From a virus: 38,977 nt of DNA. The stretch covers positions 1-38,977 of the IMG/VR virus record IMGVR_UViG_3300031862_000014; one strand, written 5' to 3'. A model generated the notes under the pieces. The model saw only the letters and a program-made list of their open reading frames with translations, had not been told where the DNA came from and made no database searches. The translations under genes were made by a program, and so were the position numbers. Shown piece after piece: positions 11,216 to 34,959 of the stretch; within the stretch, counting starts at the first letter, position 1; every line of letters starts with the position of its first letter.

Positions 11216-12097
11216 ATGCCAAAGACAGCACCGGTTGCCCCTGAGAAGTCAACAACGGCGACGGCGGATTCACCGCAAGCACAGCCGGCGGCTCAGCCGA
11301 CGGATTGGCGGACCACGCTTCCCGAGGACCTCCGTGCGGAGAAGTCCCTGGAAAGTTACAAGGATGTCGCCGCACTCGCCAAGGCGTTCGTGGAGACGAA
11401 GAAACTGGTCGGGAAGAAGACGGACGGGATGGTGCGGATTCCCGGCGAGACCGCGACCCCGGAGGAACGCGCCGCCTTCCACAAGGCCCTCGGCGTGCCG
11501 GATACGCCCGACGGCTACAAGTTTGACGTGGCTGAGGAATTCAAGCCCCTGCTCACAGACGAGGCCCTGAACCGTTACCGGCCTATCTTCCACAAGTTGG
11601 GCATCCCGCCGCAGACGGCACAGCAACTCGCGCAATTCTACGCCGAGGATCAGGCGCAGCAGCGGGTGGCAACGCAACAGGCATTGAAGGCCGAACAGGA
11701 CAAGCTGCGGGAGAGCCTCGGGGAAGCGACGTGGGACCGGAACCTCGCGCATGCGGAGGCTGGCGTGGACTACGTGGCCGCCAAGCTTGGCGAGGAGAAA
11801 GGCGAGCAGTTGAAGGCCCTTCTCGATTCCACGCTGCTTGGCGATCACCCGCTCCTCATCGAAGCCTTCACCCTGATCGGCAGGGAACTCGCGGAGAGCG
11901 GGGCAGTCCAGGTGGAAGGCGTGGCGGGGAACATGCTGGACACGGCGAAGGAATATATCGTGGCAGCCCTGCAACCGGGGCATCCGGCGATGAACCCGGA
12001 TCACCCGGAGCATGCGGCTGCGCTGGCGAAACGGCGGGAATACTACCAGCTCGTCAATCTCTACGACCCGAGCTGGCGAGCGGTTCCGAAGGAATAG
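11216..12097 (+). CDS. Capsid scaffolding protein
   Basis: Assists assembly of the prohead and is removed before maturation. The ATG at 11216 has GAGGAG at 11205-11210; an upstream TTG at 11195 would start inside the terminator T-run and is rejected. The 293-aa product is acidic, Ala/Glu/Gln-rich and almost entirely helical, with a flexible N-terminus (TATADSPQAQPAAQPTDW). A conserved segment of phage scaffolds follows: a Ser-Leu-x-x-Tyr-lysine motif (EKSLESYKDV), then LAKAFVETKKLVG and IPGETATPEERAAFHKALGV. Position directly before the major capsid gene supports the call. Confidence 0.85.
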   Translation: MPKTAPVAPEKSTTATADSPQAQPAAQPTDWRTTLPEDLRAEKSLESYKDVAALAKAFVETKKLVGKKTDGMVRIPGETATPEERAAFHKALGVPDTPDGYKFDVAEEFKPLLTDEALNRYRPIFHKLGIPPQTAQQLAQFYAEDQAQQRVATQQALKAEQDKLRESLGEATWDRNLAHAEAGVDYVAAKLGEEKGEQLKALLDSTLLGDHPLLIEAFTLIGRELAESGAVQVEGVAGNMLDTAKEYIVAALQPGHPAMNPDHPEHAAALAKRREYYQLVNLYDPSWRAVPKE

Positions 12098-12287
12098 AGC
12101 ATCAGGGCCGGAGGCCCTCTCGGATTCCCTCCGAACCTGATAGCGAGCACGGCGGGATTCGGCCTACGCCCCCCGCTGGCACCCCGGAAAGACGGGGCGA
12201 GGCGCGGCGATCCGCGAAGGGAGGCCCAGCGCTGGATTCCCTCCCGGTCCAGTGACGTGAAAGGAGGACAACGCAAGGAGGAAGGCT
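12098..12287 (+). other. Intergenic leader of the major capsid gene with hairpins
   Basis: 190 bases without an ORF. AGGGCC (12104-12109) pairs with GGCCCT (12113-12118) around a GGA loop just after the scaffold stop. A longer imperfect fold, GGGAGG with CCTCCC around CCAGCGCTGG, lies near 12220-12246. There is no T-run. AGGAGG near 12275-12280 is the capsid ribosome-binding site. The hairpins may stabilise the abundant capsid message. No convincing promoter was found. Confidence 0.45.
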
Positions 12288-13223
12288 GTGGCCTCACCCA
12301 ACAGAACGATTGACACCAGCTATTACCGAGAGCTGGAGGACATGTTCTATGTCCTCACCCAGCAGAAGAAATCCAAGCTCGAAAACCTGGTCACGGTGCG
12401 GACCGGGATCAAGGCCAAGAGCTGGGACAAGAACCGCATTGACGCCACCGAGGCCTATGATGTCACGGCGGCGAATGCCGACACCATCCTGATCGAGCAG
12501 CCCTTCAGCCGCCGCCGGATGAACCTGCTCCCCCGTGCCTGGGCGGCCATGCTGGACGAATTCGACGAGGCGATGATGCTCCTGTCGCCAGAATCGGAGT
12601 ACGTCCAGTCCTGCCTCGCGGCGCTGAACCGCCGGAAGGACAGCGTGATCATCGCGGCCATGACCGGAACCGCGGTGTCCGTCGGGGCCGCGGACGACAC
12701 GGCGGGCGGCTACACCAACGTGAGCCTGCCGACCACCGGGGGCGTCCTGGGCATCGGGCAGGTCATCGTGGATGGCGGCACGGGCCTCACCGTGGAGAAA
12801 CTCCGCCAAACGATGGCCATCCTGGACGCCAACGAGTTCCCGCCGGAGGATCGCCACATCGCATGGTCGCCGGTCGCCAAGATGCAACTCCTGCGGACGA
12901 CCGAAGCCACCAGCACAGACTACAACACCGTCCGGGCGCTGGTGAACGGCGAGATTGACACCTTCCTGGGCTTCAAATTCGTCACCTTCGGGACGAAGAG
13001 CCCTGGGTCGGCCAGCCTCAGCAAGAGCGGCAACATCCGGCAGTGCATCGCCTGGCACAAGAGCGCTGTGACGTTCGGGTCCGGGGCTGTGCGCGAGTTG
13101 AGCCTGAAGCAGCGGCCGGACAAGAACGACAACTGGCAGGTGCTGGGGAAACTCCTGGCCGGTGCCGTTCGCATGGACGAGTACGGCGTGGTGCGTTTGG
13201 ACATTGACGAGTCGAAATCTTAA
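12288..13223 (+). CDS. Major capsid protein
   Basis: Main shell protein, expected to have the HK97 fold. The 311-aa product starts at a GTG behind a strong AGGAGG. Its content fits podovirus capsid proteins that lack a protease-processed N-terminal arm: an N-terminal helix (YYRELEDMFYVLTQQKKSKL), a beta-rich middle with an Asp/Glu-rich E-loop-like region, the DEFDEAMMLLSPESEYVQS helix, and a C-terminal strand region where IAWHKSAVTFGSGAVREL precedes the end. It lies between scaffold and a head decoration candidate. Family assignment is by order and general sequence character. Confidence 0.85.
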   Translation: MASPNRTIDTSYYRELEDMFYVLTQQKKSKLENLVTVRTGIKAKSWDKNRIDATEAYDVTAANADTILIEQPFSRRRMNLLPRAWAAMLDEFDEAMMLLSPESEYVQSCLAALNRRKDSVIIAAMTGTAVSVGAADDTAGGYTNVSLPTTGGVLGIGQVIVDGGTGLTVEKLRQTMAILDANEFPPEDRHIAWSPVAKMQLLRTTEATSTDYNTVRALVNGEIDTFLGFKFVTFGTKSPGSASLSKSGNIRQCIAWHKSAVTFGSGAVRELSLKQRPDKNDNWQVLGKLLAGAVRMDEYGVVRLDIDESKS

Positions 13224-13246
13224 CCCGTGCGCTGAAAGGAGAAAGC

Positions 13247-13738
13247 ATGAGTGCGCTGAATCAGAGTTACACCACGGAATACGGCCTTCAGACGGGGCCG
13301 CGGCGGGTGCCCTCGGGGCAGTTCGACGCGCCGCTACGGGGCGGCTGGCTCCGGGAGGACTACGTCACAGGCCAGGGCACGGTGAATGCGTTCGTCCTGC
13401 CGGCGGGGAACATCCGCATCTACCGAGACCCCTCCCGGCTGAGCACCGAGAACGCAGTATGGACGAATGCGGGCGTGACTCTGGTGGTTGGGTACGCGGC
13501 GTATACCGACTACGCGGGTGTGGTCCACCCTGCCGTGACCAACGCCTTCATCACCAGCCAGACGCCGCAGGCTGCCGCGTTGGACCTGGCGCTCACTCTG
13601 GGGACGGGAATCCTGTACAAGGATTTCAACACCCAGAACGGGCTCACCATCACGTACACGATTGGCGTCGCCGACAAAGCGGCCGGCGACATCATCAACT
13701 TGCTAATCGCGTACTCGGAGATCGGCATCGGCACGTAA
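13247..13738 (+). CDS. Probable head decoration/cement protein (163 aa)
   Basis: Small Gly/Thr-rich, mostly beta-strand protein immediately after the major capsid gene, the usual place for a decoration protein. It has a strong AGGAG at proper spacing. The pattern of short strands (NAFVLPAGNIRIYRDP, VTLVVGYAAYTDYAG) and the ending TYTIGVADKAAGDIINLLIA fit a capsomer-binding beta fold. No catalytic motif. A minor head protein is the alternative. Confidence 0.6.
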   Translation: MSALNQSYTTEYGLQTGPRRVPSGQFDAPLRGGWLREDYVTGQGTVNAFVLPAGNIRIYRDPSRLSTENAVWTNAGVTLVVGYAAYTDYAGVVHPAVTNAFITSQTPQAAALDLALTLGTGILYKDFNTQNGLTITYTIGVADKAAGDIINLLIAYSEIGIGT

Positions 13739-13758
13739 CCGGTGACACACATCGTGAC

Positions 13759-13786
13759 TGGGGCGGGGCCTTCGGGTCCCGCCCCA
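13759..13786 (+). other. 12-bp hairpin with TTCG tetraloop
   Basis: TGGGGCGGGGCC (13759-13770) and GGTCCCGCCCCA (13775-13786) pair over 12 positions (one G-U) around TTCG (13771-13774), a very stable RNA tetraloop. It lies between the decoration gene and the next start, with the ribosome-binding site AAGGAGG directly after it. There is no T-run, so it may limit 3' decay of the capsid message or attenuate read-through, not terminate fully. Confidence 0.6.
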
Positions 13787-13798
13787 AGGAGGTTTCAC

Positions 13799-14551
13799 GT
13801 GAAAAAGCTCTCACTCATTGCAGCGGTCCTGGCCCTCTTTGTCGCTGGAGTGCTCAGGGCTGATGACACCTTGAACCTGCCCGTTGCCACGCAAGGTGGC
13901 CTCGTCACCGGGGACATCATCTACGCCCGCGACGCGAATCATCTCGGCAACATCAGTGCCGTCGCGGTCGGGCAGGTGCTCACGTCTCAGGGGGCTGGGG
14001 CGAAGCCCGCCTACAGCGGGACGCTCCCGTCTGCGTTGGCATCTCCAGAGAAAACGGACGGCACTGTGTTCCTCCCAGCGTACAAGGCATGTTGGAGCGA
14101 CAGCGCCAACCTCATCCTGGTTCGCTTGGCCGCGAACGATTGGGCGCTTGGCCGCACCGCAGCCGGGGCGGAGACCTACAACATTGTCTGTTCGCTTGAC
14201 CTCGACCTTCAGCGCACCACGTCCGGCAAGGGCGTCAAGATCAACTCGATTGACGTGGTGTACCACATTACGACGGCTGACCTAACCTCGCACACGTGGG
14301 GCAAGGTGGCCACCGTCACTTACGCGAACAACGCCGCGAACGTCGTCAGCGCGGCTCTCGACACCCCCATTCAGCTGAACACCACCGCGCGAGCGAACCC
14401 CTACGTCCAAAACGTGGTCATTGCGACGCCTGCCTATCTCCCATCAGCCAAACTCATCACAATCAACGTCGAGTGGCAGGCGGTGATGCAAAACACCGGC
14501 GTCTATCGCGTGTACGGCATTGCGGTGAACTTCTCGCGCACGGACCTCTAG
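13799..14551 (+). CDS. Fibre-like virion protein with Sec signal peptide (250 aa)
   Basis: Starts at a GTG directly behind AGGAGG. The N-terminus, MKKLSLIAAVLALFVAGVLR then ADD, is a textbook signal peptide with likely cleavage after residue 21. The next segment, VTGDIIYARDANHLGNISAV then GQVLTSQGAG, matches the short motif common in phage tail and head fibres (GDIIYA...L...GQVL). The C-terminal 160 residues are predicted beta-rich and could be a jelly-roll or receptor-binding domain. Its place after capsid/decoration genes suggests a head or accessory fibre. A cleavable export signal on a virion protein is unusual. The longer frame from 13742 includes the hairpin and is rejected. Confidence 0.65.
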   Translation: MKKLSLIAAVLALFVAGVLRADDTLNLPVATQGGLVTGDIIYARDANHLGNISAVAVGQVLTSQGAGAKPAYSGTLPSALASPEKTDGTVFLPAYKACWSDSANLILVRLAANDWALGRTAAGAETYNIVCSLDLDLQRTTSGKGVKINSIDVVYHITTADLTSHTWGKVATVTYANNAANVVSAALDTPIQLNTTARANPYVQNVVIATPAYLPSAKLITINVEWQAVMQNTGVYRVYGIAVNFSRTDL

Positions 14552-14563
14552 GAGGGCGGTGTC

Positions 14564-14860
14564 ATGGCGAACGTGCTGACCGGCAGTCCCATCGTTCTCG
14601 ACACCGCGGGGGCCACCTCGGCGATTGCCTCTCGCGTCAAGATTCAGGCGGTGAAGTGGGTAGGAAACACTCAGGCTGGCGATGTTTGCCTCCTGCATGA
14701 TGCAAGCGGAGGCAATGTCGTGTGGCAGGCGAAGGCGGTCGGTGCCAATGCGGACATCTTCAACGTCTTTTCGCCAGCCATTTTTGCCAAGGGCCTCTAT
14801 CTTACGACGCTGGCGAGTGGGACGCTCCTGGTGTACCTCTCGCCGGACACCGGAGGATAA
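14564..14860 (+). CDS. Hypothetical small structural protein (98 aa)
   Basis: Good ribosome-binding site (GGAGG nine bases before the ATG). The sequence is Gly/Ala/Val-rich and beta-like, starting MANVLTGSPIVLDTAGATSA and ending LVYLSPDTGG. No signal peptide or metal motif. Set in the head-gene block with small gaps to both sides, it is probably a minor virion protein. Family not recognised. Confidence 0.65.
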   Translation: MANVLTGSPIVLDTAGATSAIASRVKIQAVKWVGNTQAGDVCLLHDASGGNVVWQAKAVGANADIFNVFSPAIFAKGLYLTTLASGTLLVYLSPDTGG

Positions 14861-14863
14861 GCG

Positions 14864-15130
14864 ATGGCCCTTCTGAGTCCGTCTGATCCGGCGGGGGTGC
14901 GTTCGATCTCGTTGCAGCCGTGGTTCATCCAGGTGGCGCTGACGCCGGGGCTCCTGACGGCGCAACTGGTCCTGCCCGTGGCCCTGCCGTTCTGGGTGAT
15001 GATTGCCAACCCGAACTGGAACACCACGGTGTATATCGTGGACGGCACGCAGACCCAGAAGGGATGCACGCTCAAGTTTTCCACCGTGATCCCAGCGGGC
15101 GGGCAACTGAACGTCGCGGTGATTGGGTGA
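14864..15130 (+). CDS. Hypothetical small structural protein (88 aa)
   Basis: Begins three bases after the preceding stop, with GGAGG inside the end of that gene. The product is beta-rich (FIQVALTPGLLTAQLVL, then FWVMIANPNWNTTVYIVDG) with no identified motif. The resemblance in size and composition to the preceding protein suggests both are minor head or fibre-related proteins. Family not recognised. Confidence 0.65.
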   Translation: MALLSPSDPAGVRSISLQPWFIQVALTPGLLTAQLVLPVALPFWVMIANPNWNTTVYIVDGTQTQKGCTLKFSTVIPAGGQLNVAVIG

Positions 15131-15178
15131 TGCAGGCACAGGCGCGGGCGTCCGTCCCGCACATAAAGGAGCGCAGTT

Positions 15179-15526
15179 ATGAGTGATGAGCCGATTACCG
15201 GCATTCTAGCAGGGATTGGGAGCACCCTGACTGCTGGTGCGGCCACCGGTCCCACGGCAACAGCCATTGGCGGTGCCGTCGCAGCATCCATGGCAGCGGG
15301 GTTGGCATCAGCCGGTGTGAACATCGCTGGGGCCATCAAAGGACCGCCGAAGGCTCCTGGGTTGCCGTCTATTGGACTCACGCCCGAGGAAGAGGCGAGA
15401 CGGCAGGCAGACCTCCAAGCGGCCCAGCTGCGGGCGGGACGGGGTGCCACGCTCTTGACAGGGTCCGCAGGCGGTCCAAGCCTCATGTCGCCTGGACGGC
15501 CGTTGAAAACGACCTTGGGCGGGTAA
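15179..15526 (+). CDS. T7 gp7.3-like tail assembly/virion protein (115 aa)
   Basis: The N-terminal 60 residues are Gly/Ala-rich and hydrophobic (AGIGSTLTAGAATGPTATAI, VAASMAAGLASAGVNIAGA). They are followed by a charged helix (PEEEARRQADLQAAQLRAGR) and the ending RGATLLTG...LKTTLGG. An arginine-rich helix followed by GRxATxLTG and a C-terminal lysine-x-x-LGG is seen in small podovirus proteins located just before tail tubular protein A, of which T7 gp7.3 is the prototype. AAGGAG precedes the ATG. The assignment rests on composition, position and that C-terminal motif. Confidence 0.6.
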   Translation: MSDEPITGILAGIGSTLTAGAATGPTATAIGGAVAASMAAGLASAGVNIAGAIKGPPKAPGLPSIGLTPEEEARRQADLQAAQLRAGRGATLLTGSAGGPSLMSPGRPLKTTLGG

Positions 15527-15532
15527 GACGCC

Positions 15533-16405
15533 ATGGCAATGGCTCTCGTGGATGTCATCAACAGCGGATTGTCCCAGATCGGCGTCGCGCCGATTACGGC
15601 GGCAGAGTTCGCCACGCCAGTTACGCCAATTGGCGTCATCCTGAACCGCGACGCCGTGAACTGGATGCAGTCCGTGATGCGGGCGGTGGATTGGTCCTGT
15701 CTCACGGCCCGCCAAGTGCTCCAAAACAACGGCTCAGTGACCATGACCCTCTCGTCCGCTGCCGTCGGCACGGGCGTCACGGCGACCCCGGCGTCCGCGT
15801 ACTTCAACGCCCGCGATGTCGGCCGGACGCTCTACGAAGTGGGGTACGGACTCAGTGGCGTGTACAAGATCACGTCGCTGGCGGGCAGTCCACTCCTGGC
15901 GACCGGCGAGGTGAAGGCCGCCTTTGCCGGCGTGACACTCTTGGCCCAAGGGTGGACGCTGGCACCGCTCTCCGCATGGGACAGCGCCTATCTCCTGCCG
16001 TCGGACTCGCTGAAGGTCCGGGGAATCGCCGACGAAGACGGATTCTATGCGTCCTGGCATTACCGGAGAACCAGCGGATCCCCGATCCGGTGGGCGGTTG
16101 AAGGCCAACAGCTTCTCACGAATGCCATCCGGGCGACCGATCCCAACACGAACGCGAGCTCGACGTATCCCGTGGTGGTGTACACCTATTACGAGTCCAA
16201 CCCGGATAACTGGGATGAACTCCTGCTCCAGGCGGTCGAGGCCAGGATCGCCGCCGAGATGGCCTGGACCACGAAGAATCCGAAGCTTGTGGCCGACAAG
16301 TGGGCACTCTACAATGCCAAGATCGCTGAGGCGGAAGGGGCCACGCGCGATGAGCACCAGCGCCACGGGTATCCCCGTACCATCCTGTTAGACGTTCGGA
16401 GGTAG
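15533..16405 (+). CDS. Tail tubular protein A (gp11-like adaptor) with an inserted module
   Basis: Forms the ring between portal and nozzle. The N-terminal MALVDVINSGLSQIG helix and the C-terminal WDELLLQAVEARIAAEMAWT, then a helix ending AEAEGATRDEHQ, are typical of gp11-type gatekeeper proteins. At 290 aa it is longer than T7 gp11 (about 196 aa). The extra length is a beta-rich insert at about residues 68-145 that contains FNARDVGRTLYEV (Asp95-Val-Gly-Arg) and ends GWTLAP. The same kind of module occurs in the next gene. The ribosome-binding site is weak (GGGTAAGACGCC). Confidence 0.88.
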   Translation: MAMALVDVINSGLSQIGVAPITAAEFATPVTPIGVILNRDAVNWMQSVMRAVDWSCLTARQVLQNNGSVTMTLSSAAVGTGVTATPASAYFNARDVGRTLYEVGYGLSGVYKITSLAGSPLLATGEVKAAFAGVTLLAQGWTLAPLSAWDSAYLLPSDSLKVRGIADEDGFYASWHYRRTSGSPIRWAVEGQQLLTNAIRATDPNTNASSTYPVVVYTYYESNPDNWDELLLQAVEARIAAEMAWTTKNPKLVADKWALYNAKIAEAEGATRDEHQRHGYPRTILLDVRR

Positions 16406-16406
16406 C

Positions 16407-18932
16407 ATGGCCTCCGCGCCGCCGAAGATCATCCGCAACAACTTCAATGCGGGGGAAATCTCTCCGTTCGTCGTCGGGCGGATTGACCAGGAGCGCTATT
16501 ACAATGCCCTGACGACATGTGAGAACTGGATTCCGCTCGTCCAGGGCGGTATCCAGGTGCGCCCCGGACTCATCTACGCGGGAGCCGTCAAACCCACCGG
16601 GGGCCGACCGCGGCTCATTCCGTTTGTTTTCGCCGCAGGCGATCAGGGCGTGATGGAGTTTGGGAATCAGTACATCCGCTTCTGGAAATTTGACGCGACG
16701 ACCGGCCTGCCGGTGCAAGTCACGGATGGTGGCGGGACTCCTATCGAAGTCACGACGACGTACACCACTGCTGAGTTGCGGTCTATCCAGTACCGCCAGT
16801 CCGGGGATGTGGTCTTCCTCGCCCATGGCAACCATGCGCCAGCGGCACTGTCCCGCCTCTCTGCGGATTACAAAACTTGGTCCTTCGCGGACATCAGCTT
16901 TTCGCCTCCGCCGACCTATGAGGGCAAGACCGACTTTGCCACTGCCGTGACGCTGACCGTTGCTGTCAGTGGCGCGGCGGACAACGGCGGCGGGCTCATT
17001 CGGATTACCACGGCGACGCCTCATCATCTCAGCACAGGCTGGACGGTTACGATTACCGGCGTGGTCGGCACGACTGAGGCCAACGGGACCTGGGTTGTGA
17101 CCGTGATTGACGCCACCCACTTCGATTTGCAGGGCTCGGCCTTCGTCAACGCCTACGTCTCCGGCGGTACGGTCTTCGGGCATGTCTGGACAGTCACCGT
17201 GGACAAATTCCTTGCGGGCGATGTGGGTCGGGTGATCAAGACTTCAGATGGAGCCCGCGTGTCGATCACGGACTTCATTGACGCCCGGAACGTCCACGTC
17301 CAAGACATTCTCGCGCCGCCCGCCACCAGTTACACCTCCGGCAACTGGTGGCTTGAGGGCTCTCCGAGTAGCGTACTCTATCCGTCCATCGCGGGGCCAG
17401 AGGGCGCTATCGCTCTGCTGACTGCCAAGGCGTCGGTTGGCGGGGGGACGCAGGATGCGTTCCGCTCAACCGATGTGGGCAAGTATGTGATTATCCTTGG
17501 CGGCGTCTTGCACATCACGAGCTTCGTGAATGCCACACAGGTCTACGCCCAGATTTTGAACACGCTGTCGAGTTGGACGAGCACCGTCAACTATGCGCTC
17601 GGTGGGGAGTGGACGCTGGAACAGCCGATCTGGACGGCAAGCCTCGGCTACCCCCAAGTGATTTCCCTCCATCAGCAACGGCTCTTATTCGGCAATTCAA
17701 CGACGGAACCGGACACCATTCGGGGGAGCCAGATTGGCGATTACTTCAATTTCGGCACGGGTCTTGTGGACAGCTCGGCACTGGAATTTGTGATGGCCAC
17801 TGGTGCGGTCTGCCCCATCCAGTGGATGGAGCCTGTCCAGGCGTTGGCGGTCGGCACGCTGAGCCGGGGATTCTTTCTGGGGGATCGCCAGGGCACGCCG
17901 ATTACACCAACCTCGCCCAAGATTTCCCCGCAGAACTCGGCCGGCGCGAACCTCATCGCGCCCGTCGTGCTGGAAAATAGTTTGCTCTTCATCGTGCGCG
18001 GACAACGCTCCGTCGGCGAATGGCTCTACAACGTGCTGACCGACATCGCCGAGGTGTCCGACCTGCTGGAATACGCGAATCACCTTACCATTGACGTGGC
18101 AAGCGACGGGGATCGCATCTTCCTGGAAAACGCCGCACAGACGCAACCCATGCCCATTGCGTGGTATGTCCGGCCCGATGGCACCCTGTGTGGTCTGGCC
18201 TACCGGCGCAAGCAGAATGTGACCGCGTGGTTCCGCGTGACGACGTGGCGGGGGACGACGCAGGATGTGATTGAGTCTGTTGCGGTGATCCAGAATCCCG
18301 TCACGTTCAAGGATCAAGCGTGGTTGGCGATCAACCGGGGGGGTACGCGAAGCATCGAGGTGATGGATGCGATCCCGAATCCCGACCGGCACATGGATGC
18401 GTCCGTCAAGTACAGCGGCCCAGCCACAAGCACGATTACCGGCCTCGCCCATCTGAATGGCCTCTCCGTGGGCATTCGCGGCAAGGATGCAGGCGGGACG
18501 TGGCGGCTCTATCCGAATCAAACCGTTGCTGGCGGACAGGTGACTGGCCTGAATCCGACCGTGGTGGAAGCCGAGGTCGGGCTGGTCTTTCCCGCCACGG
18601 CGACCGTGCCCCCAGCAGAATTCCCCGGCGCCCAGACGATTCAGGGGAAGCCGAAGTCCTACGGCCTGATGCAGGTGCGGACCTACGATACACCGTCGCT
18701 CAAAATCCAGAGCGTGCGGTATCCGAACGATGGGTACAGTGCCTCTGCTGTCTACGTCATCCCGAGCAGCGGGATTCCACCGCTCGGGCCGCTCTCGCCC
18801 GCGAAGGATTGGGCGGACTTCGAGTTAGCCACCATCGGCGTGGACCGCTTGGCGCAGGTGACGTTTGTGCAGGATATTCCTCTGCGGGGCACCGTGCTGA
18901 TGTTCTGCGCGGACCTGGATGTGGGGGCGTAA
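16407..18932 (+). CDS. Tail tubular protein B (gp12-like nozzle)
   Basis: Long 841-aa tail nozzle protein. It opens with the highly typical NNFNAGEISPFVVGRIDQER (residues 11-30), then YNALTTCENWIPLVQGG. Later typical parts are the LHQQRLLFGNS strand (about residue 420) and a long beta-propeller-like body. Residues about 195-253 resemble the FCCH-type insert found in these proteins (HHLSTGWTVTITGVVG, then EANGTWVVTVIDATHFDLQG). Two modules with DVGR/DVGK (Asp272 and Asp356) and a terminal tryptophan-leucine-glutamate resemble the insert in tail tubular protein A. The start has GGAGG at 16399-16403 region spacing. Confidence 0.92.
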   Translation: MASAPPKIIRNNFNAGEISPFVVGRIDQERYYNALTTCENWIPLVQGGIQVRPGLIYAGAVKPTGGRPRLIPFVFAAGDQGVMEFGNQYIRFWKFDATTGLPVQVTDGGGTPIEVTTTYTTAELRSIQYRQSGDVVFLAHGNHAPAALSRLSADYKTWSFADISFSPPPTYEGKTDFATAVTLTVAVSGAADNGGGLIRITTATPHHLSTGWTVTITGVVGTTEANGTWVVTVIDATHFDLQGSAFVNAYVSGGTVFGHVWTVTVDKFLAGDVGRVIKTSDGARVSITDFIDARNVHVQDILAPPATSYTSGNWWLEGSPSSVLYPSIAGPEGAIALLTAKASVGGGTQDAFRSTDVGKYVIILGGVLHITSFVNATQVYAQILNTLSSWTSTVNYALGGEWTLEQPIWTASLGYPQVISLHQQRLLFGNSTTEPDTIRGSQIGDYFNFGTGLVDSSALEFVMATGAVCPIQWMEPVQALAVGTLSRGFFLGDRQGTPITPTSPKISPQNSAGANLIAPVVLENSLLFIVRGQRSVGEWLYNVLTDIAEVSDLLEYANHLTIDVASDGDRIFLENAAQTQPMPIAWYVRPDGTLCGLAYRRKQNVTAWFRVTTWRGTTQDVIESVAVIQNPVTFKDQAWLAINRGGTRSIEVMDAIPNPDRHMDASVKYSGPATSTITGLAHLNGLSVGIRGKDAGGTWRLYPNQTVAGGQVTGLNPTVVEAEVGLVFPATATVPPAEFPGAQTIQGKPKSYGLMQVRTYDTPSLKIQSVRYPNDGYSASAVYVIPSSGIPPLGPLSPAKDWADFELATIGVDRLAQVTFVQDIPLRGTVLMFCADLDVGA

Positions 18933-24700: not shown

Positions 24701-25805
24701 GGCCGGTGGGGCGGCAGCCGATGCGGCATGGGGCAAGATGGCGGTCGGATGGGCTGGACTGCTGACCCTCATGGACTTGGCTGAACAGGGATACATCACT
24801 GGGGATCCCCCAAGAAATCTTGAAGAACGGAAAGCTGGGGAGAATGCGGGGATCGCCTGGAATTCAATTTACTTCCCGGCGACAGGGCAGTGGGTCTCCC
24901 ACCGAGCCCTTGAGCCCATTAGTTCGTGGCTGACCATTGCGGCCAATATGGTGCGAATCGCACGAGACATGCCTGATGACCAACTCCACAAATTTGTCAT
25001 TCCTCTGTTCATAGCAGCTGGGGAAGATTTCATTAACAAGCCGATCATGCAGGGCTTGTCCCGCTGGGTGGATGTGGTGACAAATTGGAGTGCTAACCCC
25101 GACCAGGCTATGCGGGACATGACCCGGGCACTAGAGCCTCCTATTCTCCCCGTCCAGGCTACGCTGCAACGGGCGCAACGGGCATTCGGGGATGACCTGC
25201 GGCGCGATGCGAGGGAATGGGTCACGCACTACATGTCAATCGTCTATCCCGATGCGGCCCCCCCGCATCGGCACATGATTACAGGAGAGCCCTTCTACTA
25301 TGAGGGCGCCTGGGGTGGATCGCTCATTTCACCACTGACAACGATGACCCCGAGTGATGACCGGGTGGACGAGGAATTGTGGCGTCTGCGGGGAGCCGGG
25401 CTGAAGCCCCTCCCGGACCACATGGCTGGCGCATCCCCCTCAGAATACCTCGGCATCCAGATTCCGGGCAAGGTCCCCGGGGTAAAGCTGAGCGCGGAGC
25501 AGCACGACCGGTGGATCGTCCTGATGACGCAACGACCCTACCGCGGGAAAACACTGCATGAGGCCATGGACGATCTGATTGCATCACCACTCTACGATGC
25601 ACAGTCGGATGTCACCAAGATTTCGATGCTGCAAGATATCTGGAATACGTACCGAGACGCATCTCAGGAAGGACTCTTGGCAGAGGACAAGCAATTGGGA
25701 ATGGCCGTGAGAGGGCAGCAGGAAGAGCGGCTGATTCAGCGCATGCCAACGGCGCAGCAACCAGCCGCCCGTGAGCGGGCAGGCATCGTCGGTCTGGGGC
25801 GCTGA
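21777..25805 (+). CDS. Internal virion protein D (gp16-like ejection protein, 1342 aa)
   Basis: The largest gene of the window. ATG 21777 has AAAGGAG nearby; the frame's earlier GTG at 21744 is not needed. The size matches T7 gp16 (1318 aa). The N-terminus is helical. A proline-rich linker (residues about 353-410; GPDEPPPPSEPPLPGQ) separates it from a long C-terminal helical part with hydrophobic segments (about 130-160 and 690-760). I could not find the lytic transglycosylase motif that T7 gp16 carries at its N-terminus, so peptidoglycan cutting may be done elsewhere. The gene stop shares one base with the next ATG. Confidence 0.8.
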   Translation: MDATMIQGLMRSADEERRRNLYERFNAIPDPTVSKERPVPLKGKTPSQFIAYIEATGLPELWRRTQRNIWQGWEALNDSPEQAARVLQAIKQAGELTGEALVRAEPKRLLYAGGELAGAAGEAAQAATGAAMFPFTLFFAPPMAATDIAVEALPHPDEPLVKIGAATLTPRSLANILGMAIGAGFIPGVRPRSMLDDAQIPRAKGPSTEPRSPATGTAARNVKLESQLARLIGGKDAVEFQYAQRARRLIEENPGMSEADLIRKALGGLTEAEAGVTAQVSRGKILDQLSPESLAEVRAQAEAGGPFPIKTAFGDIQGPKGDVLKAIQLQEQTRGIRVGRGPDEPPPPSEPPLPGQLPPTTGEPPVGPSVSAEPGAVPGAETTVPGVSGEPAAAPSKVAAFIPRSMEQALLDLGWDRDLIRQMSPEEANRIFSAQERPQVQPTPVGTTQGEVPGAERPFSIVEAPEAPGTPKTAPEATIPPAEGARKHLPGFKYPAGGPEGTVAKTIQAIQEMAGTETLVDMQKRGVIGDESARVAVAKKINSGEWTLARVLDLKPGTALIEEDFMAAKAIAEAADLNAGRIRKLAMEGLYDETEALDVTLMAAQATVNVSAVISEAGRVVRLGAKEGEIAGAKAIIGTMPLDPSGGGITDPLMRLKPLRDQLIKDAGGARMALDQIEGLKTKAQRDALGSVWIRRGHAFLEDFYTKLFWIGTSVKVVISGPITAGYDLVTTGAGEGIRRMANAIAPEHVSDVVGFTRGTTWAGFQGLRIGLQRAVQSVVKTWDALERIAKAEGVIKAEQSLTPILQQTMPEWGEATKSWNRGAQMTAENVELSGLFGRVVDIYGAAARGITTDPLQLGHGLSYTINYWMGAARRAHELAMEQGLKGEAYQDFFRREMNDPSPDVHAAATETARRNTFIRELTPAMQGLSAPMRHAAMKVLVAPVTRIPLSIFQFTMEGTPVFQNISIKWWKDVMAGGAAADAAWGKMAVGWAGLLTLMDLAEQGYITGDPPRNLEERKAGENAGIAWNSIYFPATGQWVSHRALEPISSWLTIAANMVRIARDMPDDQLHKFVIPLFIAAGEDFINKPIMQGLSRWVDVVTNWSANPDQAMRDMTRALEPPILPVQATLQRAQRAFGDDLRRDAREWVTHYMSIVYPDAAPPHRHMITGEPFYYEGAWGGSLISPLTTMTPSDDRVDEELWRLRGAGLKPLPDHMAGASPSEYLGIQIPGKVPGVKLSAEQHDRWIVLMTQRPYRGKTLHEAMDDLIASPLYDAQSDVTKISMLQDIWNTYRDASQEGLLAEDKQLGMAVRGQQEERLIQRMPTAQQPAARERAGIVGLGR

Positions 25806-27058
25806 TGGACTACAAGGACAAGTCGGTCTGCGTCGTGGACAACGGCCTCTTCATGGACTTGGCCGCCGACCTTGCCAAGCACTTCGGCACGGTGTACTAC
25901 ACGTCCCCCTGGGTGGACGAATTCCCCGACTCCAACGCGATGATTCTGGGCAAGGGCCTGCCCGACGTGAACCGAGTTGACGACATCTGGCCGCTGATAG
26001 ACAAAGTAGATTTGTGGGTCTTCCCAGATGTGTACTATGGGCGGCTTCAACTCTACCTGGAGAAGATCGGCAAGCGCGTGTGGGGTGCGCGCATGGGCGA
26101 AGAGTTGGAGCTAGTTCGGGCCGCCTCCAAGCGGCACATGGAGAAGTTGGGCATCCCCGTTGGGGAGTACGTCGTTTTGAGGGGCATAGATGCCCTGCGG
26201 GAACATCTGAAATCCCACAAGGATCAATGGGTGAAGATTTCCCTGACGCGCGGGGATAAGGAGACGTTCCACTCCCCAAACTACAAACAGATTGAGTCCG
26301 TGCTAGACGAACTAGCGATGAAACTCGGCGTGGTGAAGGCCACCAAAGAATTCATCGTTGAGCGGAACATCCCGGACGCCATCGAAATCGCCTACGATGG
26401 GTATTCAGTGGACGGGCAATTCCCCCACGCTGCGATGGTTGGCCTGGAGGTGAAAGGGAAGTGCTACATCGGCGTCTTCCAGGACGACGAAGACATGCCG
26501 TGGCAAATCACGGAGGTGAACAAGAAGCTCGCTCCGACCCTGAAGCGGTATCGCTACCGGCAATGGTCGGCGTTGGAGATGTTGATTACCGAGGACGGCG
26601 ACTACGCCGTAACCGATCCATGTGCCCGTTTCGGATCGCCTCCTGGCGAAGTGGTGCCCCTGATGTACACCAACCTCCCGGACATCTTCTGGCATGGGGC
26701 CGACGGGACACTTGTGGAGCCGATCCCCGGCGGCAAGTACGCCGTGGAACTGCGCATGGAATCCTGGTGGGCGCGGGATCATCCCTTGGCCGTGTACTTT
26801 CCGGCAGACATCAGCGATCACGTCTGCCTGCGCCATGTGTGCCTCGTCAACAACCAACCGTATATCGTCCCGCAGAACGCCAAGATCGAGTGCATCGGGT
26901 CGGTGGTGGCAGTGGGCGATGATTTGCAGGAGACGATGGATGAGGTGAAGGAGTACGGCAAACAGGTAGAAGCCTACGGGCTGGAGATTGACTACGACAG
27001 CCTGGACGAAGCCGTGGAGAAAATCGAAACGCTCAAATCCTATGGCGTAGAATTGTGA
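25805..27058 (+). CDS. ATP-grasp family enzyme (417 aa)
   Basis: Probable ATP-dependent carboxylate-amine/thiol ligase. The N-terminal part (VCVVDNGLFMDLAADLAKHF) is a Rossmann-like pre-ATP-grasp domain. Residues about 100-200 form the ATP-grasp N-lobe (MGEELELVRAASKRHMEKLG, then WVKISLTRGDKETF). The metal/nucleotide end motif lies near 262-280 as ITEDGDYAVTDPCARFGSPP, comparable to the E-x-N-x-R-x-G-D-P of PurD-type enzymes but with Asp-Pro-Cys in the middle. It is coupled by one base to the ejection protein gene and followed by the tail spike. The substrate is unknown. Placement among virion genes suggests modification of a phage or host envelope component. Confidence 0.75.
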   Translation: MDYKDKSVCVVDNGLFMDLAADLAKHFGTVYYTSPWVDEFPDSNAMILGKGLPDVNRVDDIWPLIDKVDLWVFPDVYYGRLQLYLEKIGKRVWGARMGEELELVRAASKRHMEKLGIPVGEYVVLRGIDALREHLKSHKDQWVKISLTRGDKETFHSPNYKQIESVLDELAMKLGVVKATKEFIVERNIPDAIEIAYDGYSVDGQFPHAAMVGLEVKGKCYIGVFQDDEDMPWQITEVNKKLAPTLKRYRYRQWSALEMLITEDGDYAVTDPCARFGSPPGEVVPLMYTNLPDIFWHGADGTLVEPIPGGKYAVELRMESWWARDHPLAVYFPADISDHVCLRHVCLVNNQPYIVPQNAKIECIGSVVAVGDDLQETMDEVKEYGKQVEAYGLEIDYDSLDEAVEKIETLKSYGVEL

Positions 27059-27072
27059 AAAGGAGAGTGCCC

Positions 27073-29013
27073 ATGTTCCGCCGAATCTGCCTTGCGCTCG
27101 TTGCCGTCCTGGCCCTTGCTGTCCCTGCGTTCGCTCAGGATTACGGCTTCTTCTACGGCATTGACTGCACCATTCTAAATCCCGTCAACGATCAAACATG
27201 GTGCGGCGACAACAACGGGAACTGGAAAGTATACCACAACGGGGCGTGGGTTACACTCGGCCCGCCGCCAGACACTGCCAACATCCTTCCCTTCGGGTAC
27301 TACATTGATACAGGTATTGCCGGCAGTACAAGTCGACCACGCGGCGGAAGCTGGATTGTTAATGAAATTCCGCTCATTGACGTAGGGGGTGCAGGCGCGT
27401 GGGACGAGATGATCGCGGGGGACCCGTGGTTGATGAGAGATCCGAATGGAACCACGTATTATCTCTTTTATTTCGGCGCGGACGCCTCGTCTCCCGCCTT
27501 CTATCAGGAGGGGTATGCAGTCTCGCAGGATTTGATCAACTGGACGAAAAATGCGACGAACCCAGTGCTGACGAAGGGCAACGCTGGTGCGTGGGATTCT
27601 CAGGGAGCGGGGAAAGGTGCGGTTATCCAGCTAGGCAACACGTACTACATGTATTACGACGGTATGTCAACGACCGATGCGCCGAGCGGTGGGCCATCCA
27701 AGATCGGCGTGGCCACGGCTTCCAGTCTCGCTGGGCCATGGACCAAGTACGCGGGGAATCCTATCCTGACTGGAGGCACGGAAGGAAACGGCGATGTCAC
27801 TGTGGAGGTTGACGTGCCGTCCCCGTTTGTATACCAAGGCACCGTCTATTTGTTTTACCGAGGCCGGAAGGGCGCGCCTGACTGGCGGACGCGCATCTAC
27901 TATGCGACCTCAACGGACGGCGTGACCTTTACGCGGCGAGGCATGGCCTTGGACGTGTCCCCTGCTGGCTATCCCAGCAGCCCCATCGGGTATCCCCCGA
28001 TTCCTCCGTCCACTTATCCGCCAAGTTTCGATGCGGGCTGGATTGGCCCTGGTCGCATCATCCAGGTTGGTCGCTTCTTCCTGATGAGTTACAACGGCGG
28101 TTCGTCGCAGCCGGGAGGGCTTGGAGCCGAGCCTGACCCGGCTGGACACGGCTTCGCGTTTTCTACGGACCTTGTTACGTGGTCGAAGTATTCAGCAAAC
28201 TCATTTCTTGCGATGGACACCAAGCGCTACTCCTGGCGTTTGTGGCGGACGAGTGTAGTGCAGATTGGTAATAACTTTTATAATTTCTTCAATGCGACAT
28301 CGGGAGGCAGGGAGCGAACATTCTTGGCGGCGTTCTATCCTACCCCGCCGACAGTGCTCCCCTACCTCGAGATCACCGGGAACCTCGCCGTCAATGCCTA
28401 TGTATCCACGTGGCTGCCGGCAACCGTAGACGTGGGGGGAGTGGACCTCGGTACGCCGGCCGACGCCTCCTCAGGACGCGAGGTCCGAGTAGGGGCCAAC
28501 GGAGGGAATACGGTATTTCGTGTCGGGCAGGATTCGACACACAATGGCTATCTTATGTGGGCTTGGGGGGCCTTAGCAAGTGATGCTAGTCTCCGGCTAG
28601 AGACGTTCGGTGGAAGCAACCCACTCCTATTGCAAGGGAGCGGCGGATATGTTGGCATCGGTAAGACGGACTTCCCCACAGCCTTGCTCGATCTGACAGC
28701 AACGGGTGGTGCCACGCTCGGGACGCCTGCGACCCGAGAAATGCGGATTGGTGTCGCGGCTGGAGCCAACGTTGCGATTGTGCGTGTCGGCCAGGACTCG
28801 ACGCACAATGGCTACGTTGCGTGGTACGCTGACGCCACGCCCGCGAACGCAACGTTGAACCTCTCCACGTGGGGAGGCAACAACGCACTCGTGCTGCAAG
28901 ATGCTGGGGGATTGGTCAAGATTCCGTATTTGCCAAACGCCAGTCCGGGTGCGGGCACCAAAGCACTCTGGTACGATCCCGCAGATGACAATCGTGTGAA
29001 ATTTGCACCGTGA
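27073..29013 (+). CDS. Tail spike with signal peptide and glycosidase-like beta-propeller
   Basis: Receptor-binding or depolymerase-type protein. ATG 27073 follows AGGAG (27060-27064). The first 21 residues (MFRRICLALVAVLALAVPAF then A) form a signal peptide with an AFA cleavage site. Residues about 95-425 resemble a five-bladed propeller of the GH43/GH32/GH130 type, with repeated strands such as DPWLMRDPNGTTYYLFYFGA, TYYMYYDGMS and FVYQGTVYLFYRGR that end in Asp/Trp-rich turns. The C-terminal 220 residues hold two copies of a fibre-like repeat (starting near 467 and 554, sharing RVGQDSTHNGYxxW). Final domains of this kind often trimerise. Substrate not inferred. Confidence 0.75.
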   Translation: MFRRICLALVAVLALAVPAFAQDYGFFYGIDCTILNPVNDQTWCGDNNGNWKVYHNGAWVTLGPPPDTANILPFGYYIDTGIAGSTSRPRGGSWIVNEIPLIDVGGAGAWDEMIAGDPWLMRDPNGTTYYLFYFGADASSPAFYQEGYAVSQDLINWTKNATNPVLTKGNAGAWDSQGAGKGAVIQLGNTYYMYYDGMSTTDAPSGGPSKIGVATASSLAGPWTKYAGNPILTGGTEGNGDVTVEVDVPSPFVYQGTVYLFYRGRKGAPDWRTRIYYATSTDGVTFTRRGMALDVSPAGYPSSPIGYPPIPPSTYPPSFDAGWIGPGRIIQVGRFFLMSYNGGSSQPGGLGAEPDPAGHGFAFSTDLVTWSKYSANSFLAMDTKRYSWRLWRTSVVQIGNNFYNFFNATSGGRERTFLAAFYPTPPTVLPYLEITGNLAVNAYVSTWLPATVDVGGVDLGTPADASSGREVRVGANGGNTVFRVGQDSTHNGYLMWAWGALASDASLRLETFGGSNPLLLQGSGGYVGIGKTDFPTALLDLTATGGATLGTPATREMRIGVAAGANVAIVRVGQDSTHNGYVAWYADATPANATLNLSTWGGNNALVLQDAGGLVKIPYLPNASPGAGTKALWYDPADDNRVKFAP

Positions 29014-30837: not shown

Positions 30838-30993
30838 ATGGGACAGGGTCTCGCGGGATACCACGCAGCGGAGGAGCGAATCAAGGCCGAAGAGCGCCTT
30901 GAGGAGCTCTTCCGCCGGGTGGCGGCGCTCCAGGCGAAGATCGATTCGATCAAGACTCAGCTGAGGCTGAGAGGGATTCTCTATGGCAAGTAG
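30838..30993 (+). CDS. Small coiled-coil protein before the spanins (51 aa)
   Basis: ATG 30838 has GAGG close upstream. Residues 10-45 form a charged coiled coil (AAEERIKAEERLEELFRRVA, then LQAKIDSIKTQLRL). The C-terminus overlaps the start of the inner-membrane spanin gene by 11 bases, pointing to coupling. Function not recognised. Confidence 0.55.
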   Translation: MGQGLAGYHAAEERIKAEERLEELFRRVAALQAKIDSIKTQLRLRGILYGK

Positions 30994-31228
30994 TTACGGC
31001 TGGGCGGCGCTGGCGGGAATCGTCCTAGCGATCGTGATCATCATCGCGGTATGGATTCGGCAGGGGAAGCGCGCGGCGGTCGAGAGTGCAGAGCGCGCGG
31101 GCGCGGCCGAGGACGCGGCGCGGAAGGCGGTGGAGCATGAGGTCATGGCGGACGTGGAGCGGCGCGATCTGCCTGCTGGGGTTGCTGGCGGGCGGGTGCG
31201 CGACGTTCACAAGCCGTTCGGCGGCTAA
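30983..31228 (+). CDS. Inner-membrane spanin candidate (Rz-like, 81 aa)
   Basis: The N-terminal membrane segment (GWAALAGIVLAIVIIIAVWI) is followed by a basic stop and a charged helical periplasmic part (AAVESAERAGAAEDAARKAV). The second half contains the start of a second, lipoprotein-encoding gene in a different frame. That nested arrangement is the hallmark of the Rz/Rz1 pair, which joins inner and outer membranes in the last lysis step. Shorter than lambda Rz (153 aa). Confidence 0.75.
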   Translation: MASSYGWAALAGIVLAIVIIIAVWIRQGKRAAVESAERAGAAEDAARKAVEHEVMADVERRDLPAGVAGGRVRDVHKPFGG

Positions 31229-31514
31229 ACATCCTGTGCCGCCAGCCCTCGAGTGGCCGGCCTTCGACCGCGAGGTTCTGCGCGAGCCAGCGAGCGCGCG
31301 GCTGCCGGGCGGGACGGCGATCTATTCGCTGCCGAGCGAGACGACCATCGCTCCGGCCGATCTGTGGTCCGTGGGGGCGGCGCAGCAGCGAGACGCCTTC
31401 TGGGAGCGGGTTCTGCGCGACCGTTGCGCCATGCGTGAGGCGCTCCAAGTAGCCAATGGCGAGGCTCCCACGCCCGATGGCGTGTGTCTTCCTGCGCGAT
31501 CCATAGCCAAGTAA
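31137..31514 (+). CDS. Outer-membrane spanin candidate (Rz1-like lipoprotein, 125 aa)
   Basis: Begins at the ATG at 31137, inside the preceding gene in a different frame. N-terminus MRSWRTWSGAICLLGLLAGG then Cys21: a lipoprotein signal with basic N-region, hydrophobic core and a lipobox-like LAGGC (Ala at -3 is less usual). After Cys21 comes a flexible part with several prolines (AAKHPVPPALEWPAF). The mature protein would be anchored in the outer membrane and bind the Rz-like partner. It is longer than lambda Rz1 (60 aa). Confidence 0.75.
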   Translation: MRSWRTWSGAICLLGLLAGGCATFTSRSAAKHPVPPALEWPAFDREVLREPASARLPGGTAIYSLPSETTIAPADLWSVGAAQQRDAFWERVLRDRCAMREALQVANGEAPTPDGVCLPARSIAK

Positions 31515-31887: not shown

Positions 31888-32733
31888 ATGAAAACCATCG
31901 GGCACATCTTGAGTGCCTATCGTGCCTCCCGCGAGCAGACCGGCTGCAAGGGCCAGTCAATTGCGTCGGTGCTCAAAGATTTGGCGGTGCGCTTGGGCGA
32001 CAAACCCGTCAGTTCACTCTGCACGCAGGACATCGAACAGATGATCTCGGCGATGGACGGTGAGGGTTACAAGCCCGCCACCATCCAGGGCCGCGTCAGC
32101 TACCTCCGGGCGGCCCTGCGATACGGGCAGCGATGTGGCCTCGTAAATTCCCTGCCTTATTTTCCCTCGCTCAAATTCCACAACGCCCGTCAGGGCTTCT
32201 TCGAGGCGGACGAATTCGAACGGATCGTCCGCCGTCTCAGCCCGCCCTTTGACGATGTTGCTAGGTTCGGGTACGAGACTGGTTGGCGACTATCCGAAAT
32301 CTTAGGGCTCCGATGGTCTCAGGTGGACCGGCAGCATGGCGTGATCGTGCTGCCGGACAGCAAGAATGGACAGGGCCGGACACTGCCGCTCCGCAACGGG
32401 CGCGCCGAAATCGTTGACCGCCAATGGCAGGGACGGCCATATGGCGATGCTCTCTCGCAGTGGGTTTTCCATATTCGGGGACAAAGGATTACGAGGGACC
32501 GCTTCTGGCGGACGTGGAAGGCCGCAAGGGAGGCTGCTGACCTACCCAATAAGTTGTTCCATGATTTCAGACGCACGGCAGCCCGCGATATGGTCGCCGC
32601 GGGTGTGGATTACCATACGGCCATGCAGGTAACAGGCCACAGGACAATGAGTATGTTCCTCCGATACCAGATCACGGATATGCGCAGTATGGTGCGGGGG
32701 TTGGACGCCCTAGATCGGCACCGAGCAGCGTGA
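31888..32733 (+). CDS. int: Tyrosine recombinase (integrase)
   Basis: Site-specific recombinase of the lambda Int/XerC type, expected to insert the phage genome into the host chromosome. All catalytic residues are present: Arg134 (GWRLSEILG), Lys159 (DSKN), His225 and Arg228 (HDFRR), His251 (TGHRT) and the nucleophile Tyr260 (FLRY). Residues 1-105 form the core-binding SAM-like domain (VSSLCTQDIEQMISAM). The 281-aa length suits a small integrase without an arm-binding domain. The start is ATG 31888 with a weak GGGGGTG site. It shares the promoter with the HTH gene upstream. Confidence 0.92.
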   Translation: MKTIGHILSAYRASREQTGCKGQSIASVLKDLAVRLGDKPVSSLCTQDIEQMISAMDGEGYKPATIQGRVSYLRAALRYGQRCGLVNSLPYFPSLKFHNARQGFFEADEFERIVRRLSPPFDDVARFGYETGWRLSEILGLRWSQVDRQHGVIVLPDSKNGQGRTLPLRNGRAEIVDRQWQGRPYGDALSQWVFHIRGQRITRDRFWRTWKAAREAADLPNKLFHDFRRTAARDMVAAGVDYHTAMQVTGHRTMSMFLRYQITDMRSMVRGLDALDRHRAA

Positions 32734-34070: not shown

Positions 34071-34172
34071 ATGATCTATCATATCCTCTGGTTCCTCTGG
34101 TGGTGGTTCTGGCTCGCCGTCCTCGTGGGCCTTATCTTCGGTGAGTTGGTGCGCCGGGGATGGGTGCGATGA
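34071..34172 (+). CDS. Tiny Trp-rich membrane protein (33 aa)
   Basis: Begins six bases after the zinc-ribbon stop. MIYHILWFLWWWFWLAVLVG then LIFGELVRRGWVR is a single membrane segment with five Trp in the first 15 residues and a basic tail. Its stop overlaps the start of the second small membrane protein. Tiny single-span proteins of this kind often modulate a larger membrane partner; none is evident here apart from the neighbour. Confidence 0.5.
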   Translation: MIYHILWFLWWWFWLAVLVGLIFGELVRRGWVR

Positions 34173-34291
34173 TAACTTGGGCCGAAGCCCTTTTTGTCTT
34201 CGCCACCGCCATCTGGATTCTCTGCACCGTGGCTCTGGCGATCTCCATCCTCTACGAGGCCGCCATGTGGGTCTGGAGGAAAATCAGGTGA
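34169..34291 (+). CDS. Tiny membrane protein before the receiver gene (40 aa)
   Basis: ATGA overlap with the preceding gene and one-base overlap (TGATG) with the next. MITWAEALFVFATAIWILCT then VALAISILYEAAM forms one membrane span with a basic end (WVWRKIR). Coupled with the 33-aa membrane protein and the receiver-domain gene. Confidence 0.5.
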   Translation: MITWAEALFVFATAIWILCTVALAISILYEAAMWVWRKIR

Positions 34292-34959
34292 TGCCTGTCC
34301 TGCCGCCGGACCGATATGAGCATGTGGGGGAGTTGTTTGTGGCGCTGGACGTGCGGATCGGATGTTCGCCGGCCCTGTGGGGCGTGTTCCCAGTGTCCGT
34401 CAATCCGCACCGCTTGGCGGAGCGGATGACCACCCAGCTTCGGGAGGAGCTGGCGATGGCCGGCTTTCGGTCCACCACGTCCGATGCACCCTCGTTTGAG
34501 GTACACCCGGCGACGGGCATTATTCAGGAAGAGGAGGTCGAAGAGGCCGAATTCAGGTCGGAGCTCGACCGACTCGGGCCGCTCCCAACCGTACTGATCG
34601 TTGAGGACGATCCCTCCACGCGGGAGTACCTTCGAGCCGCGTTAGAGGCCGAGGGGTACGAGGTGCTAGAAGCCTCGCATCAGTTAGGTGTCGAAGCAAT
34701 GGCGCGTTTGCCATCACCCGTAAAGGCTGTGCTCCTGGACGGGAATGTCCCATTCGCAGACGGTCAAACGCCGATTGCAACTCTCCGGCTGGCGCTACGT
34801 CTTCGGGCGGCGGGGATTCCAGTCATCATCCATTCGGGTGACGATGAGATAAACGAGGAGGCCCGAGAACATGGCCTACGGGTCATGCCCAAGGGTAGTT
34901 CACTCAGCGACCTCCTGCGTGCCGTACAATCCTGTGTCGAAGGTGCGCCCGAGGGATAG
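34291..34959 (+). CDS. Receiver-domain (response regulator-like) protein (222 aa)
   Basis: C-terminal receiver domain of two-component signalling, residues about 99-220. All key residues are present: acidic pocket Asp106/Asp107 (VLIVEDDPS), phospho-acceptor Asp150 (AVLLDGNVP), Ser182 (IIHSGDD) and Lys201 (VMPKGSS). The N-terminal 95 residues are a domain I do not recognise (HVGELFVALDVRIGCSPALW; then an alpha/beta part and a Glu-rich linker). No DNA-binding output domain follows the receiver. The start shares one base with the stop of the tiny membrane protein, so the three are coupled. A phage protein of this kind could divert phosphate from host histidine kinases; this is inference. Confidence 0.8.
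   Translation: MPVLPPDRYEHVGELFVALDVRIGCSPALWGVFPVSVNPHRLAERMTTQLREELAMAGFRSTTSDAPSFEVHPATGIIQEEEVEEAEFRSELDRLGPLPTVLIVEDDPSTREYLRAALEAEGYEVLEASHQLGVEAMARLPSPVKAVLLDGNVPFADGQTPIATLRLALRLRAAGIPVIIHSGDDEINEEAREHGLRVMPKGSSLSDLLRAVQSCVEGAPEG

Follow-up and report, generated by a model that had tools for sequence, protein, structure and literature searches.

Tail spikes of the textbook kind lack a signal peptide and are synthesised in the cytoplasm, and to our knowledge the virions of tailed phages are taken to be assembled entirely in that compartment. Particles can be completed in vitro with separately supplied P22 tailspikes or T4 fibres. The mosaic adhesive trimeric (MAT) fibres of Bdellovibrio are trimers resembling phage fibres that begin with a signal peptide and vary at the tip (PMC10769870), the tips being S74 or NS74. 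Signals are also borne by phage lysis proteins, namely the secreted endolysin Lys44 of fOg44, SAR endolysins and T4 RI (PMC6116005, PMC8385771). The literature searched, whose coverage was incomplete, yielded such lysis proteins and no report of signal-bearing tail fibres. Here we describe two genes of one virus, at 13799 and 27073, in which a predicted Sec signal peptide precedes a fibre-like or spike-like protein.

Gene order and genomic position

The window, that is, the whole stretch of DNA analysed, is a virus record of 38,977 bases with the gene order of a podovirus, running from terminase, head-tail adaptor and major capsid protein through tail proteins and a head-type protein to an integrase. 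The following assignments were obtained:

Major capsid protein: phrog_3437, 2.3e-63
Tail proteins: phrog_394 and phrog_376
20156, head-type protein: phrog_992
31888, integrase: PF00589, 2e-26

The genes at 13799 and 27073 both lie within the virion gene block, the spike gene at 27073 being near the usual fibre position. In most relatives of the capsid, a single gene of about 155 aa separates the capsid gene from the tail genes; in the window, four extra genes (13799, 14564, 14864 and 15179) are inserted there. In L020, whose capsid is 36% identical, this slot is taken by two different proteins with signal-like but weaker starts (scores 8.0 and 8.1), and in the distant prophages L295-L297 it is occupied by a PHROG tail-fibre gene without a signal, which places the 13799 gene where fibre genes sit. 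The adjacent gene at 14564-14860 and L140:6379-6651 form a short protein family (MANxxTGxPxVL...) present in two phages that carry the N-module described below (32% identity, 1e-9); this family, located near signal-bearing genes, gave no family match.

The tail protein at 16407-18932 (phrog_376) contains a stretch similar to the E1_FCCH domain (PF16190, 1.2e-6, just under the cut-off), an annotation that is also carried by its Vibrio phage homologues. At 30983-31514, reading frames overlap in two phases, and the second frame begins in the manner of a lipoprotein (LLGLLAGGC); a Pfam search of these frames gave no match, and they look like a nested spanin pair, which, if so, would indicate a diderm host. 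The gene at 34141-34959, which lies to the right among the non-structural genes, encodes a response-regulator receiver domain (PF00072, 1.9e-8).

The fibre-like gene at 13799

The features of this gene and of the sequence directly before it are:

13759..13786, + strand: 12-bp hairpin with a UUCG loop, directly before the Shine-Dalgarno sequence; -28.5 kcal/mol, z -3.4, no T-run
13787..13792, + strand: Shine-Dalgarno sequence AGGAGG, 6/6 match, 6 nt before GTG 13799
13799..14551, + strand: signal-bearing fibre-like gene (P0001), 250 aa, GTG start, stop at 14549-14551
13799..13861, + strand: Sec signal peptide MKKLSLIAAVLALFVAGVLRA, with Ala21 as the last residue before the predicted signal peptidase I cut
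13910..13981, + strand: phage-fibre motif GDIIYA...GQVL GDIIYARDANHLGNISAVAVGQVL, residues 38-61, after the signal
13982..14548, + strand: C-terminal domain with two Cys (residues 98 and 131); a low-confidence prediction gives mainly beta structure

Residues 1-21 of the protein, MKKLSLIAAVLALFVAGVLRA, are followed by DDTLN; they comprise two Lys, an uncharged hydrophobic run and Ala at -1, with acidic residues beyond the cut and a less typical Leu at -3. On a home-made score of the n-, h- and c-regions and the cleavage site, this N-terminus reached 9.4, level with OmpA (8.7), MalE (8.8) and LamB (8.7), while PhoA scored 7.5. Such a value is rare among random N-termini (10 of 20,000 with the composition of P0001, 0 of 20,000 with that of the large proteins of the window). 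By this score and by its start site, the protein has the basic n-region, hydrophobic core, small residue at -1 and real start codon of a Sec and signal peptidase I substrate. The Sec signal peptide claimed for this protein in the initial annotation was thus borne out, as was the fibre motif GDIIYA...GQVL.

The assignment of the start codon was examined against the sister phage (L002/L071/L143, IMGVR 3300032069_000025). The 63 nucleotides coding for the signal are identical in the two phages, while about 10 changes fall in the 60 nucleotides directly upstream, which supports GTG 13799 as the start; because only about two changes would be expected in 63 nucleotides, this identity is not evidence of selection on the signal. 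The in-frame GTGs upstream (13742 and 13754) lack a Shine-Dalgarno sequence, and GTG 13742 was rejected as the start for this reason and because the sister changes are more frequent upstream of 13799. The next in-frame starts past the signal (TTG 13871 and GTG 13976) are likewise without a Shine-Dalgarno sequence, and with no well-placed internal start the signal would not be bypassed. The hairpin at 13759-13786 is mostly kept in the sister, with the neighbouring bases changed. Strong as it is, it was rejected as an intrinsic terminator, having no T-run and giving no terminator-like hit, and is perhaps an mRNA-processing or stabilising element. No sigma-70-like promoter was found in 12000-16500, a type that may not be that of the host.

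Searches of the C-terminal domain against Pfam, PHROG and PDB gave no match; the AlphaFold2 model of the protein (mean pLDDT 44.5) was too poor for use, and fold searches with it gave no significant match. The sister copy (L002:8001-8750) shows 98% protein identity, with 15 synonymous and 5 changed codons, and no homologue beyond it was found by sequence in viral contigs, phage records or PDB. The motif is far more widespread, since a scan of viral contigs for TGDIIYA returned at least 75 distinct ORFs, a few of them chance matches and some cut at the contig end. Among these matches listed, most have the fibre form of the motif, and only the sister copy of 13799 has a signal peptide. Judged from these sequences, TGDIIYA is genuine and common as a motif of phage fibres, and a signal ahead of it is the exception; as the other listed fibres do without one, export is not required for such folds. 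Signal-like starts are also rare in the gene neighbourhoods of capsid and tail protein relatives (nine among 1,021 genes of at least 100 aa, four of the nine being the genes discussed here or their copies).

The spike at 27073 and the two-cysteine N-module

The second signal-bearing gene is composed as follows:

27073..29013, + strand: protein with signal, two-Cys N-module, GH43/GH32-type propeller and fibre-like C-terminus
27073..27135, + strand: predicted Sec signal peptide MFRRICLALVAVLALAVPAFA
27139..27261, + strand: two-cysteine N-module GIDCTILNPVNDQTWCGDNNGNWKVYHNGAWV (xxGxDC...PVxDQTWC...KVYxxGxWV), common to five genomes
27421..27909, + strand: glycosyl hydrolase 43/32-type propeller (PF04616 1.5e-8, PF00251 1.4e-6; PDB 3r4y 4e-12)

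An AGGAG-type site lies 6 nt before ATG 27073, and the alternative start GTG 27055 would retain the signal. This signal is also strong, in agreement with the earlier pairing of the 13799 protein with an exported-type spike, and the glycoside-hydrolase-type propeller makes the 'depolymerising' role suggested there a reasonable one for the 27073 protein. The AlphaFold2 model (mean pLDDT 34.2) was too poor for use.

The N-module family is small, comprising five genomes of which one pair are close relatives: the window, the sister (L143), L140 (with an SU10-type adaptor), L144 and L145, a contractile-tailed prophage of Baseplate_J type in a MAG labelled Deltaproteobacteria. In 5/5 genomes the signal stands directly before the module and has Ala at -1, and the n-region is basic. 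The bodies behind the module vary, from the GH43/GH32-type propeller of the window to pectate-lyase helices and repeats. In the sister spike, a signal closely resembling that of the window and a related module precede a pectate-lyase helix of the tail-spike/EPS-depolymerase type (PF12708 7e-14, phrog_7458 1.6e-12). The other proteins that begin with the module have 586 aa in L140, 565 aa in L144 (a NosD-like helix protein) and 1,724 aa in L145 (a fibre). As in tail spikes, the body has therefore been swapped between close relatives (window and sister) with the N-terminus constant. The gene before the spike (25805-27058) encodes 417 aa in the window and 774 aa in the sister (L143:7662-9983) from the same start, and the N-terminus of the 21744 protein also differs between the two phages, so that the swap may belong to a larger recombined stretch. 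The structural block of L140 also encodes a small protein (L140:7841-8155, 105 aa) that has four Cys and whose signal is strong (score 11.0).

The signal of the window is 52-55% identical to those of L140, L144 and L145, above the shuffled level (27-35%), whereas the pairs among L140, L144 and L145 show 29-31% signal identity against 24-28% when shuffled, with modules 32-50% identical. Across the family, to judge from these alignments, the character of the signal is kept more than its letters. The window, sister and L140 genes contain no well-placed internal start past the signal and ahead of the module; in L144 the start lacks a clear Shine-Dalgarno sequence, and the further in-frame start codons of L145 have weaker or badly spaced sites. 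Some of the search patterns included part of the signal and two others the module alone; the module-only patterns recovered L140 and L144 (in one case also the sister) and no signal-less member. Two (L156 and L158) of the four contigs matching a PVxDQTWC DNA pattern were rejected as not such genes, and isolate phage records gave only chance-level matches to the module. Among 395 genomes of the phylum of the L145 MAG, the full-strength module occurs only in that MAG, within a prophage; the window terminase has only distant relatives among these genomes.

The initial annotation had named, as evidence against its reading, homologues that mostly lack the N-terminal segment and have a good internal start. 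We found the segment in the one homologue of 13799 (the sister, 1/1) and in 5/5 members of the N-module family; proteins without it exist only in the looser sense of the listed TGDIIYA-motif fibres, which are non-orthologues.

Cysteine content differs among the signal-bearing fibres. Compared with the other large genes of the same contig, it is raised in the two slot proteins of L020 (2.4% and 2.1% vs 0.21%), L145 (2.0% vs 0.33%) and L144 (1.5% vs 0.5%), and is not clearly enriched in the two window proteins (0.87% and 0.32% vs 0.65%). As an argument, cysteine content carries much weight for L020 and L145, less for L144 and none for the window proteins.

Possible roles of the export signals

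From the sequences, the export signals look selected rather than accidental, because the same kind of tag is found on fibres of several unrelated viruses, and export is the plainest reading of signals kept with their cleavage site in unrelated phages. That the spike is part of the virion is argued from its gene position and from the body swap behind a fixed N-terminus, the usual pattern of virion spikes. Export and virion membership are compatible if an exported, disulfide-bonded spike joins at lysis. Our best explanation, which we put forward tentatively, is that both proteins are of receptor-binding fibre or spike type, exported by Sec, cleaved and folded in the periplasm, and that the spike joins the virion at or after lysis. 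Both would leave the cytoplasm by the Sec pathway of the host and lose the tag to signal peptidase I, and cysteine pairs could form disulfides during periplasmic folding. At cell lysis the spike would meet completed tails and attach from outside, with the two-cysteine N-module as the attachment part and the swappable body as enzyme or adhesin. For the 13799 protein the same route is proposed from the signal, motif and slot of that gene itself, and by analogy with the N-module family. Against this route, trimers exported by Sec would need to stay in the periplasm until lysis and be captured then, for which no tailed-phage precedent was found in the literature searched.

The main rival, which we regard as somewhat unlikely, is that the proteins are exported and never enter the virion, acting as free secreted or surface-held depolymerases or adhesins that clear capsule for the progeny, block receptors against superinfection or alter the surface of the lysogen. 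The signal data fit this equally well, the integrase at 31888 makes lysogenic expression possible, and bacteria provide comparable cases in the secreted, signal-bearing phage-like trimeric MAT fibres of Bdellovibrio (PMC10769870) and in Pantoea WceF, which is described as a biofilm-modifying enzyme with a phage-tailspike-like fold (PMC7949094). However, both genes lie in the virion block, with the spike close to where fibre genes usually lie and 13799 in the fibre slot of L295-L297, and the lack of a sigma-70-like promoter in 12000-16500 also speaks against it, with the reservation that the host promoter type may differ.

The two remaining readings fit less well. The initial annotation had also suggested that the hydrophobic N-termini serve as virion anchors, in which case an uncut segment would plug the fibre into the particle without export. 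A constant N-terminus with swapped bodies does resemble a virion-attachment segment, and both poor models have a hydrophobic N-terminal helix, which is equally expected of a signal. But a specific docking peptide should be conserved, whereas three pairs have signal identities near the shuffled level despite the basic n-region and the Ala at -1 in 5/5, and an anchor needs no cleavage site; we consider this reading unlikely. Less probable still is that the genes were acquired from secreted fibres of bacteria, with the signal as a harmless left-over. Signal-bearing fibre genes are indeed rare in related phages, and bacteria do have secreted fibre-like proteins (PMC10769870), but the signals have been retained in 5/5 N-module genomes despite sequence divergence, and the occurrence of the full-strength module in a single MAG of the 395, inside a prophage, points to no bacterial source.

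Periplasmic folding followed by late joining of the spike therefore remains our preferred reading. As a general proposition, that some tailed phages route disulfide-bonded receptor-binding spikes via the host periplasm and finish the virion when lysis mixes the compartments is possible but rather doubtful. If true, the assembly of a tailed phage would be divided between two compartments. Conserved export signals on this class of fibres and spikes would mean either that the all-cytoplasm rule is broken or that phages secrete enzymes or adhesins acting off the particle, and either outcome would alter the annotation of receptor-binding proteins.

Comparison with known systems

The phage lysis proteins (Lys44, SAR endolysins and T4 RI) resemble the proteins described here in using host Sec signals and differ in having a lysis role instead of a fibre or spike type. 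Metagenomic phage fibres with the GDIIYASxANTxxRLGIGSxGQVL repeat have the motif in common with 13799, the signal being confined, among the matches listed, to the sister copy. Podophage tail spikes with pectate-lyase or glycosidase bodies (PHROG 7458, 2234 and 4250 types) are like the 27073 protein in position, body swapping and polysaccharide-acting folds, but in the latter a signal and a small two-Cys module make up the constant part. A phmmer search of both window proteins against PDB returned no MAT chain, and the Bdellovibrio MAT fibres were compared by description: they are encoded by bacterial genes and have a common domain of about 130 aa after the signal, whereas the genes described here are phage genes with a two-Cys module of about 41 aa.
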